Assembly (NCBI GenBank): GCA_949296295.1
Contig: CASFOM010000230.1
Span: 1-42,772 of the forward strand
Reading direction: 5' to 3'
Length of the DNA stretch: 42,772 nucleotides
DNA from: an uncultured Alistipes sp.
GTDB taxonomy: Bacteria > Bacteroidota > Bacteroidia > Bacteroidales > Rikenellaceae
Position numbers and translations under genes: made by a program. Positions 19,549 through 22,282 of this stretch are shown here, piece by piece. Every line of letters starts with the position of its first letter. Within the stretch, counting starts at the first letter, position 1. The notes under the pieces were generated by a model, which saw only the letters and a list, made by a program, of their open reading frames with translations, was not told the DNA's origin and did no database searches.

Positions 19549-19971
19549 CTATTTGGATTCGGATGAGTTGTGTTTGGATTTTGAAAATACTTTATATTCC
19601 AAAATAAAAGAGATGAGAAGGCCTAACCCTCCGAAAAACAACATGGAGGCAGTATAGATAATTTCTCGATCTTTGTTAGATGATAAAGGAGATAAAGGAT
19701 CCAAACCATAACTCGAAAGTAAAAATCCCAAGATTAATCCGAATCCCATCCCGGATAAAGTCAATGCAATGTGTAAGGGTACAAATTTATTGTTGCCCGA
19801 TGAATATTCCGGCAATTGAGGAAAAATGCAAGGAGAGGATAAATTAAAATCCTTCATTTTTTCAATAAATAAAATACGTTCTTTCCGTCGAGCATACAGA
19901 GCAAACAACTTGTAAAAAAAATAGCATAATATGCCAATAATGAATGTAGGAGCAAGAAAAGAATGAATCAT
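19549..19971 (-). CDS. Small DUF6249-like membrane protein, ECF target
   Basis: Protein of 140 residues with an N-terminal membrane helix (about residues 5-24), a basic stretch with ARRKERILFIEKM, then two more helices (about 68-90 and 107-126). The pattern resembles DUF6249, small membrane proteins often found beside ECF sigma factor genes in Bacteroidota. That assignment is from memory of the pattern, not a search. Its upstream region carries TGTAACC-N15-CGTCCA, the same promoter architecture as the divergent sigma gene, so it is probably transcribed by that sigma factor. Function unknown. Confidence 0.7.
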   Translation of the reverse strand: MIHSFLAPTFIIGILCYFFYKLFALYARRKERILFIEKMKDFNLSSPCIFPQLPEYSSGNNKFVPLHIALTLSGMGFGLILGFLLSSYGLDPLSPLSSNKDREIIYTASMLFFGGLGLLISFILEYKVFSKSKHNSSESK

Positions 19972-20010
19972 AGCATTTATTTTTTAGATTTGTAAAAATG
20001 TTTTGCTTAT

Positions 20011-20038
20011 TGGACGTCGAAATAAAGAAAAGGTTACA
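20011..20038 (-). promoter_or_regulatory. ECF-type promoter of the DUF6249-like gene
   Basis: On the minus strand: -35 element TGTAACC (20038-20032), a 15-base spacer, and -10 element CGTCCA (20016-20011), about 40 bases before the start codon. It matches the promoter of the divergent sigma gene in sequence and exact spacing. Confidence 0.72.
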
Positions 20039-20302
20039 GCTCTCGAAAAATTTTTGTGTGAGAACGTACTCCTTTTTATTGTTTAATAGTCAGGCCTGAA
20101 CATATTTGTATTGAATGAGGTGCGTATTTGTATGGAGATAGATAGGAAGGTGTCTTGATTCATATATGTTTATGGCTGTGACGGAAAATTATATTTGAAA
20201 TTTGTATATTATTGCGATTTTTTGAACTCCTCAAAAGGTGGGGGTGTAAACGGAACCTGTCTCAGTGTTAGATAATTTAGAGATAATAAGGTCGATTTTG
20301 TT

Positions 20303-20330
20303 TGTAACCCTAACTGTTGGATAGCGTCTA
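20303..20330 (+). promoter_or_regulatory. ECF-type autoregulatory promoter of the sigma gene
   Basis: TGTAACC (20303-20309), 15-base spacer, CGTCTA (20325-20330), ending 23 bases before the sigma factor ATG. AAC at -35 and CGTC at -10 are typical of ECF promoters. The divergent copy at 20011-20038 has the same elements and spacing. The rest of the 382-base gap between the two genes holds no gene. Confidence 0.75.
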
Positions 20331-20353
20331 AAGATAAAAAGGACTTGAAAAAT

Positions 20354-20896
20354 ATGACAACAGTTGATGAAAAACAAATAATTGAACGCATCCAAAAGGG
20401 TGAAAATGAATTGTTCGGGCTGTTGTTGGCAAATTATTCCAATCAGATATTCGGATTGATTGTCCGTATGGTTGGTAATCGTGAAGATGCGGAGGAACTG
20501 ACGCAGGATGTTTTTCTGAAAGTTTTTCGGGCTTTGCCGGATTATAGGGGCGAAAGTTCTTTTTCCACTTGGTTGTATCGAATTGCCTATAATTGTGCAG
20601 TGTCGAAAATCCGGAAGAAAAGGCAACGGTTTTATTGGGGAGGACCCCTTTGGGAACGGCTTGCCGGAGAAGTTCCGGAGGAAGAATTCACACCTCAAGA
20701 AGAACAGTTGGAGAGTTTGGAACAGGCATTGCGTCGTTTGCCTCCCGAAGAGGCACTGATGATATTGATGTTTTATTGGGAAAAGAAAAGTGTGCAGGAG
20801 TTGGCGAAAATTACCGGATTATCGGCAGGTAATGTGAAGGTGCGATTACATCGCATTCGTGAGAAATTAAAAAAATGGATATTGGATAAAAAATAG
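20354..20896 (+). CDS. ECF-type RNA polymerase sigma factor
   Basis: Extracytoplasmic-function sigma-70 factor of 180 residues from the ATG at 20354; a longer frame starts at TTG (20345). Region 2 is clear: FGLIVRMVGNREDAEELTQD, then FRALPDYRGESSFSTWLYRI. Region 4 follows a short linker: LEQALRRLPPEEALMILMFY and the recognition helix GLSAGNVKVRLHRIREKL. Its own promoter has an ECF pattern, as does the divergent gene, which points to positive autoregulation. The next two genes (13-base gap, then a 4-base overlap) form its operon and probably supply its regulator. The inducing signal is unknown. Confidence 0.92.
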   Translation: MTTVDEKQIIERIQKGENELFGLLLANYSNQIFGLIVRMVGNREDAEELTQDVFLKVFRALPDYRGESSFSTWLYRIAYNCAVSKIRKKRQRFYWGGPLWERLAGEVPEEEFTPQEEQLESLEQALRRLPPEEALMILMFYWEKKSVQELAKITGLSAGNVKVRLHRIREKLKKWILDKK

Positions 20897-20909: not shown

Positions 20910-21275
20910 ATGAATGCAGAAGAACAGGATAAGTGGTGGCAGGAACAGTTTGCTGCCTTATCACCCAATGAACTCCCTGAAGGGATGAATGAACGTATTT
21001 TACAGACGGTGTTGTTGGCTGAAAAGAAGCATCAAAGGAGAAAACGATTCTTAATCTTGTTATTTGTATCCGCAGGAATAGGAGGCGTAGCTGCCGGCCT
21101 TGTATGGGTGGTGAGAAACTACGGCTTTTATTTTGAGAAATTATGGTCCGACTGGTTTTCTGAATGGAATTTACCGGAATGGGAAGCAGGAACATTCCCC
21201 TTTATTACAGGAGGAGTTTTACTCTTCCTCTTGATGCTTCAATTATGGATTGAACAAAAAATAAAAACAACATGA
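20910..21275 (+). CDS. Small two-helix membrane protein, probable anti-sigma
   Basis: Protein of 121 residues: an N-terminal cytoplasmic stretch of about 45 residues with PEGMNERILQTVL, a basic HQRRKRF hinge, a membrane helix (about 47-67), a Trp-rich loop and a second helix (about 96-113). I recognise no named domain and see no zinc-binding HxxxCxxC motif. Its place 13 bases after the sigma gene and its topology fit an anti-sigma factor, as is usual for ECF operons. This function is inferred from context. The stop overlaps the next gene by four bases. Confidence 0.6.
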   Translation: MNAEEQDKWWQEQFAALSPNELPEGMNERILQTVLLAEKKHQRRKRFLILLFVSAGIGGVAAGLVWVVRNYGFYFEKLWSDWFSEWNLPEWEAGTFPFITGGVLLFLLMLQLWIEQKIKTT

Positions 21276-22282
21276 TGGGAAAAGAATGGAGACAAATTAT
21301 GGTAATAGCCATAATGGTTTTGGGAATAACAGCTGTTTCCTGTTCCTCTCGATTGTCTGAAGACGGAGAGATGGCAAAACCGGATTATGCTGATGATTAT
21401 ATGTGGTATCGTTCAGGAGATGCAGTTGATAAAAAGGCTGATGTATTTTATATAACCCCTACCTGTGTATGGGACTGGAAGAATGAACAGGGAGAGATTT
21501 GTCATTATATGAATGTCCAAGATGTCAAGCAACGTAAGGCGGTGGATGGTTCCAACCGATTGGCAGAAGCTTTGTTTGGGAAAAGTTGCCGTTTCTTCTC
21601 TCCCTATTATCGTCAGATAACCATGAACTCATGGTTTGAATCTGCTGACGTGATTGAAAAACGGTATGCTGAAGCTCACCGGGATATTGTCCGGGCTTTT
21701 CAATATTATATGGACCATTTCAATCAAGGACGTCCCTTCCTCCTGGCCGGTCATAGTCAGGGGGCTAAAGCAGTCATAGAGCTTTTAAAAAATTCTTTGA
21801 CAGAAGAACAGTATGAGCGAATGGTGGCAGCTTATGTCCTCGGATTTTCAATTACCCGTTCAGAAACGGAGAATTATCCATTTGTGAAACCGGCAGCCGA
21901 TTCCCTGGATACAGGGGTGGTGATTTGCTTTAACAGTGTATCACACCTCGAAGCCATCTCTCCTTTGTTTCAAGAAAACAGTGTTTGCATCAATCCTTTG
22001 AATTGGGAAGTGGGAGCAACCTATGCACCTGCTTCGGAAAATAAAGGTTCGGTATTTTTCAACGCATCCGGAACTTCAGATACCTTGGTAGGAAAGGTGG
22101 GGGCCCGTTTGGATGTGAATGCCCATACCTTGTTGATTGACGGATTGGATGACGAACAATACTATATCCCTTCCATAGGAGAACTTTTCCCAAAAGGGAA
22201 CTATCATGTACAAGAGTTGAATTTGTATTTTTTGAATTTGCAACAGAATATAGCCCGTCGGATTGAAGTATTTGAAGAATAA
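21272..22282 (+). CDS. DUF3089 alpha/beta-hydrolase lipoprotein
   Basis: Protein of 336 residues with a signal peptide ending in a lipobox-like AVSC (Cys24), so probably an exported lipoprotein. The nucleophile elbow GHSQG (serine 162) in FLLAGHSQGAKAVIELL and the flanking pattern (DVFYITPT near residue 57, FFSPYYRQ near 108) fit DUF3089, a serine-hydrolase-like family with unknown substrate. Tandem ATGs at 21272 and 21275 are alternative starts. It is the last gene of the sigma factor operon, so it is probably a target of the same envelope signal. Confidence 0.8.
   Translation: MMGKEWRQIMVIAIMVLGITAVSCSSRLSEDGEMAKPDYADDYMWYRSGDAVDKKADVFYITPTCVWDWKNEQGEICHYMNVQDVKQRKAVDGSNRLAEALFGKSCRFFSPYYRQITMNSWFESADVIEKRYAEAHRDIVRAFQYYMDHFNQGRPFLLAGHSQGAKAVIELLKNSLTEEQYERMVAAYVLGFSITRSETENYPFVKPAADSLDTGVVICFNSVSHLEAISPLFQENSVCINPLNWEVGATYAPASENKGSVFFNASGTSDTLVGKVGARLDVNAHTLLIDGLDDEQYYIPSIGELFPKGNYHVQELNLYFLNLQQNIARRIEVFEE

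Follow-up and report, generated by a model that had tools for sequence, protein, structure and literature searches.

Paired ECF promoter-like sites connect a sigma factor operon with a divergent DUF6249 gene in a predicted circuit conserved in Bacteroidota

To our knowledge, targets have been identified for few of the extracytoplasmic function (ECF) sigma factors found in Bacteroidota, and DUF6249 (PF19762) is a protein family without known function. Both meet at a locus in a 42,772-nt stretch of DNA from an uncultured Alistipes sp. (contig CASFOM010000230.1 of assembly GCA_949296295.1), here called the window, in which a sigma factor gene and a DUF6249 gene diverge from a shared intergenic region that holds two similar, oppositely oriented promoter-like sites. 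The locus raises the question of whether these sites are promoters through which the sigma factor activates its own operon as well as the divergent gene, as a first-pass annotation made from the sequence alone had proposed. Bacteroides thetaiotaomicron alone possesses 50 ECF sigma factors (PMC12596196).

The locus and its two promoter-like sites

The plus-strand gene next to the intergenic region encodes an ECF (group IV) sigma factor, with region 2 at residues 26 to 90 and region 4 at residues 120 to 172, a short linker and no region 3 (Table 1). Its nearest solved structures are SigH, SigW, and RpoE. The sigma gene is followed on the same strand, with tight spacing, by the genes for a two-transmembrane-helix (two-TM) protein and a DUF3089 lipoprotein. 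Among the loci tested, a DUF3089 homolog was found at the sigma locus only in a genome of the same genus (G001), so we regard this gene as a local addition; as judged from the comparison of loci, the conserved core is formed by the sigma factor, the two-TM protein, and DUF6249. The divergent gene, initially described as DUF6249-like, encodes a true PF19762 member (42.4 bits versus a cut-off of 33) with conserved glycines and a charged ER pair after the first helix. For one DUF6249 member, a weak match to the LiaI-LiaF-PspC TM family was obtained; a structure search with the DUF6249 model against known structures and a search with the family profile against solved structures gave no significant match.

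Table 1. Positions of genes and predicted promoter elements at the locus (window coordinates)
Feature	Position	Strand	Basis
DUF6249 membrane protein, 140 aa, three predicted TM helices	19549..19971	-	PF19762, E=7.5e-11
Predicted ECF promoter, DUF6249 gene	20011..20038	-	-35 TGTAACC, N15, -10 CGTCCA; exact pattern match
Possible housekeeping -7 element, TATATTTG	20190..20197	+	Consensus match alone (sigma-ABfr, TAnnTTTG)
Predicted autoregulatory ECF promoter, sigma operon	20303..20330	+	TGTAACC, N15, CGTCTA; exact pattern match
ECF sigma factor, 180 aa	20354..20896	+	PF04542, PF08281, TIGR02937; alternative TTG start at 20345
Probable anti-sigma factor, 121 aa, two predicted TM helices	20910..21275	+	Conserved position and topology; putative function
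DUF3089 lipoprotein (alpha/beta-hydrolase-like), last gene of presumed operon	21272..22282	+	PF11288, E=3e-48; lipobox-like VSCSS

The region between the two divergent genes (19972-20353) has the length of 382 bases given in the first-pass annotation and holds TGTAACC-N15-CGTC(C/T)A twice, at the positions and with the equal spacing reported there. The minus-strand site reads TGTAACC-TTTTCTTTATTTCGA-CGTCCA and the plus-strand site TGTAACC-CTAACTGTTGGATAG-CGTCTA, both with a spacer of N15. A pattern search of the window returned just these two matches, while shuffled windows contained 0.02 matches on average and 0 of 100 shuffles reached two, in agreement with the earlier statements that no further pair is present and that chance is an unlikely cause. 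Both sites also lie close ahead of a start codon, as had been noted: the DUF6249 ATG follows 42 nt past the last base of CGTC in the minus-strand site, and the sigma ATG (20354) 25 nt past that in the plus-strand site, with an in-frame TTG (20345) at 16 nt. The assignment of the boxes to ECF promoters is supported as well, in that they fit the AAC/CGT hallmark; such promoters are, together with autoregulation and a co-transcribed anti-sigma factor, textbook features of ECF systems (PMC8103513). Furthermore, TATATTTG on the plus strand of the same region matches the housekeeping -7 consensus TAnnTTTG of sigma-ABfr in Bacteroidetes (PMC7366714) and could provide basal expression of the sigma factor.

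A genome-wide search for TGTAACC-N(14-16)-CGTCNA had been suggested in the first-pass annotation, with frequent occurrence at random positions as an argument against the sites. In the 2.70-Mb genome, this pattern gave 3 matches, namely, the window pair and one N14 site on another contig, and TGTAAC-N16-CGTC gave 4, namely, the window pair and 2 sites within long open reading frames (ORFs). Random positions in the genome thus rarely carry the motif, which is essentially limited to the window pair. The N14 site was rejected as a regulon member because no convincing gene lies downstream, and the two additional TGTAAC-N16-CGTC sites because they lie inside ORFs. When one mismatch was allowed, the genome-wide matches (89 in total) did not exceed those of a reversed-pattern control (106). 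Since the pair is nearly unique in the genome, the predicted regulon in the window's organism consists of two promoters.

Conservation of the sites and relocation of the DUF6249 gene

Relatives of the locus were gathered from 60 related genomes and 80 named contigs, and a first scan detected the motif in nearly all of the close relatives, mostly as two divergent copies. Conservation was tested on 98 distinct loci encoding the window-type ECF sigma factor, with a total of 662 kb. In this set, 149 of 152 motif copies are located just ahead of a gene for the sigma factor or for DUF6249; of the three others, one stands at the start of an operon whose sigma gene comes after a short gene. Viewed from the genes, a motif is present at most 260 nt upstream of the sigma gene in 90 of the 98 loci and ahead of 64 of the 69 DUF6249 genes that were found by profile in the sigma loci. 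Dinucleotide-shuffled upstream regions contained it in 5 of 9,700 trials. These comparisons indicate that the paired sites are kept by evolution across the phylum Bacteroidota.

The sigma genes that form the exceptions are of different kinds. L051 is cut by the contig end, L074 has only about 160 nt of upstream sequence, and at L014 the motif is found at the head of a longer operon. Variant boxes are present at L112, L073, L091, and L097, and L088 has diverged. At the locus L204 (G032:C16), a gene for a small secreted protein, chagasin-like as judged by eye, has been added at the front of the sigma operon, and the predicted ECF promoter is now located ahead of that gene.

The internal architecture of the sites is far more constant than their surroundings. 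A spacer of N15 is found in 139 of 154 sites and the boxes are near-invariant, whereas spacers and flanks are unrelated between species and the gap between paired sites varies from 3 to 266 nt, with 2 to 3 kb in three loci. Each copy is also set at a typical distance from the start codon of its gene. A fixed N15 combined with variable gaps and spacer sequences is the layout of two separate promoters rather than of a single paired operator. In 71 of 88 loci (among L006 to L113), the sigma gene has its first in-frame ATG 7 to 14 nt past CGTC, to which the window and G001, with 25 nt to the ATG, are exceptions; for DUF6249, the median distance from CGTC to the start is 44.5 nt, corresponding to a leader of about 35 nt. 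Assuming that transcription starts 6 to 9 nt past CGTC, the sigma mRNA, unlike that of DUF6249, would have almost no leader, which implies that in most species the sigma gene is read from a nearly leaderless mRNA.

The proteins encoded behind the minus-strand motif belong to DUF6249 in 47 of 47 cases, each with an E value of 0.01 or better; as this set was chosen by the motif, the weight rests on the tests that start from the protein, i.e., the 64 of 69 genes above and a second search by profile in genomes where DUF6249 was not found next to the sigma gene. In 13 of the 13 genomes tested in this way, the relocated DUF6249 gene has the exact motif 42 to 62 nt upstream. In P. macacae and Lentimicrobium, the motif-bearing DUF6249 gene is on another contig than the sigma gene, and G051 is a further case with the two genes on different contigs. 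Other genomes document rearrangements at closer range: in G001, an ORF of 1,046 aa separates the sigma and DUF6249 genes and both promoters are kept, in G032 the DUF6249 gene is rearranged with its motif retained, and in G016 it has become the third gene of the sigma operon, without a separate promoter. We consider these natural rearrangements, including the relocated genes, the strongest evidence that selection keeps DUF6249 co-expressed with the sigma factor. We therefore predict that an autoregulated ECF sigma factor has the divergent DUF6249 gene as its core target.

Recognition of the sites, additional targets and alternative explanations

Several observations bear on which sigma factor reads the sites. 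In a quick tree, the clade around the window sigma factor has the motif, and the most distant homologs (L024 to L033), which are paralogous, are without it. At L112, TGTC replaces CGTC at both promoters. In the clade of L073, L091, and L097, the sigma promoter reads TGTGAC-N16-CATC, and the sigma factor carries the exchanges S84M and K162T in regions expected to contact the -10 and -35 boxes. This variant occurs once in each of the three genomes, at the sigma gene, and the remote DUF6249-like genes of these genomes have neither the usual nor the variant motif. The clade offers a case of promoter and sigma factor apparently changing together; as it represents one evolutionary event, it is suggestive only. 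From this distribution, we infer that the window sigma factor recognizes both TGTAACC-N15-CGTC sites.

The motif was also detected ahead of other genes. Of the 10 best-scoring loci with PspC/LiaF-like genes in distant Bacteroidales and relatives, 7 have it 20 to 70 nt ahead of the gene (L336, L337, L339, L340, L341, L343, and L345), and the encoded proteins have LiaF-like TM regions. The PspC genes of the window's genome and of its closest family lack the motif upstream. Genes for a MacB/LolD-type ABC ATPase have it upstream in a minority of genomes (L366, L367, L380, and L383), and variant CGAC boxes are present upstream at L373, L374, L376, and L378; in G070, G072, G074, and G075 (Dysgonomonas and Prevotella sp. 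10(H)), the ABC ATPase genes are preceded by TGTAAC-N16-CGAC. The ABC ATPase genes are possible targets that may belong in part to another ECF sigma factor. Upstream matches at OMP_b-brl, DUF5686, TlpA-like, TetR, and further genes were limited to single genomes without recurrence, and these candidates were rejected. The earlier description of a small regulon thus holds for the window's genome and does not extend to distant relatives, where the motif also precedes PspC/LiaF-like genes and, less securely, ABC transporter genes. The position of the motif before PspC/LiaF-like genes in these relatives makes a role of the circuit in envelope or membrane stress moderately probable.

Taken together, it is very probable that the two sites are ECF promoters that serve both arms, the sigma operon and DUF6249. 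Two opposite copies within one divergent intergenic region could in principle also constitute a bipartite operator, at which a dimeric transcription factor represses or activates both genes. We regard such an operator as highly improbable, because the internal N15 is held constant and the distance between the copies is not (3 to 266 nt, in some loci as much as 3 kb), each copy sits at the typical distance from its own start codon, single copies precede relocated DUF6249 genes and PspC genes, and the boxes carry the AAC/CGT signature by which ECF promoters are recognized (PMC8103513). It is hardly credible that AT-rich copies without function were shared by chance or neutral descent. Although divergent intergenic regions are passed on together, the near-invariance of the boxes amid unrelated spacers and flanks, the near absence of the motif from shuffled regions and its movement with DUF6249 all speak against this.

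A different possibility accepts the sites as true ECF promoters and has one or both of them used mainly by another ECF sigma factor with overlapping specificity. Different ECF groups have similar promoter boxes, an overlap of regulons has been suggested in flavobacteria (PMC9723704), and the TGTAAC-N16-CGAC sites before ABC ATPase genes hint at a second sigma factor. Nevertheless, we consider this unlikely, given that the motif tracks the window-type sigma clade and is absent at the distant paralogs, that at one locus the boxes of both promoters have changed and in one clade the boxes have changed together with the linked sigma factor, and that the window's genome contains only this pair.

The probable anti-sigma factor, the proposed circuit and known systems

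In the 121-aa protein encoded downstream of the sigma gene, 46 residues precede the first of two TM helices (family median, 51). Both the adjacent position and the topology of this protein are conserved at sigma loci, which makes it a probable anti-sigma factor. Profile searches with the protein returned no significant family or anti-sigma domain match, Foldseek returned no match for its model, and the best match of the family profile among solved structures (PDB) was RsiW, with an E value of 0.39 that is not significant. An AlphaFold2 model consists of a short helix (residues 3 to 16) and a long helix (residues 26 to 85). A class I anti-sigma domain (ASDI), a four-helix domain of about 100 aa, was rejected because the N terminus, with about 46 residues and two helices, is too short for it. 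In class II, CnrY has a short N terminus with two helices that clamp the sigma factor (PMC7406223), and going by the model, the size and two-helix plan of the 121-aa protein fit this class better than class I. The likeness to CnrY/CnrH concerns size and layout, in that a short N-terminal segment in the cytosol, containing two helices, precedes a TM helix; no sequence similarity was detected, and the 121-aa protein has a second TM helix. A class I domain is found nearby for only 6% of Bacteroidetes ECF sigma factors (PMC7406223), a figure that minimal anti-sigma factors would help to explain if they were common.

In the circuit that we propose, the small membrane anti-sigma factor would hold the ECF sigma factor inactive until an envelope signal frees it. 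The sigma factor would then guide RNA polymerase to both TGTAACC-N15-CGTC promoters between the divergent genes. One of them would drive the sigma factor, the anti-sigma factor and, in the window's genus, the DUF3089 lipoprotein, resulting in positive autoregulation, and the other the divergent DUF6249 membrane protein as the conserved core output, which might serve as a membrane effector or as a partner in feedback.

Parts of this arrangement are known from other systems. E. coli RpoE-RseA and B. subtilis SigW-RsiW share with it a sigma factor of regions 2 and 4 only, an AAC/CGT-type promoter before the sigma operon, and a membrane protein encoded directly downstream; the window's locus differs in its probable anti-sigma factor, which has about 46 to 51 residues before the first TM helix, two TM helices, and no significant class I domain, and in having a DUF6249 gene as core target. 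In the alphaproteobacterial EcfG system (nepR-ecfG with divergent phyR), a divergent gene and the sigma operon are likewise served by promoters of the same sigma factor (PMC8103513), but here the divergent gene encodes a DUF6249 membrane protein instead of PhyR, and a two-TM protein is encoded downstream instead of a NepR-type anti-sigma factor. With neither PhyR nor NepR at the locus, membership in the EcfG general stress response was rejected. Within the same phylum, Das/Dma ECF21, EcfO, and SigW-1 (BT1817) also combine an ECF sigma factor with an adjacent membrane regulator; unlike the protein found here, however, Dma proteins span both membranes and have a C-terminal barrel, and a TGTT -10 element has been reported for SigW-1. 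Phage-shock and LiaF-type systems resemble the circuit through the motif before PspC genes with LiaF-like TM regions in distant relatives and differ from it in the window's genome, whose PspC genes are without the motif.

A description of DUF6249 as a sigma target was not found in searchable papers (one plant paper matched), the main ECF classification paper (Casas-Pastor 2021) aside, and a published ECF group may already include the window sigma factor. We see an even chance that the findings outline a Bacteroidota-wide, so far unnamed envelope-stress system, consisting of an ECF sigma factor, a minimal two-TM class-II-like anti-sigma factor, and an obligate DUF6249 membrane partner, to which some lineages would add PspC/LiaF-like proteins and a MacB/LolD-type transporter, with the sigma mRNA nearly leaderless in most species. 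For a sigma factor found across Bacteroidales and beyond, the analysis predicts an exactly defined promoter together with a core target gene and puts forward a candidate for the anti-sigma factor, and DUF6249 becomes a testable part of a stress circuit. The window-type sigma factor is present in cultured species, namely, Parabacteroides distasonis and species of Bacteroides and Dysgonomonas.
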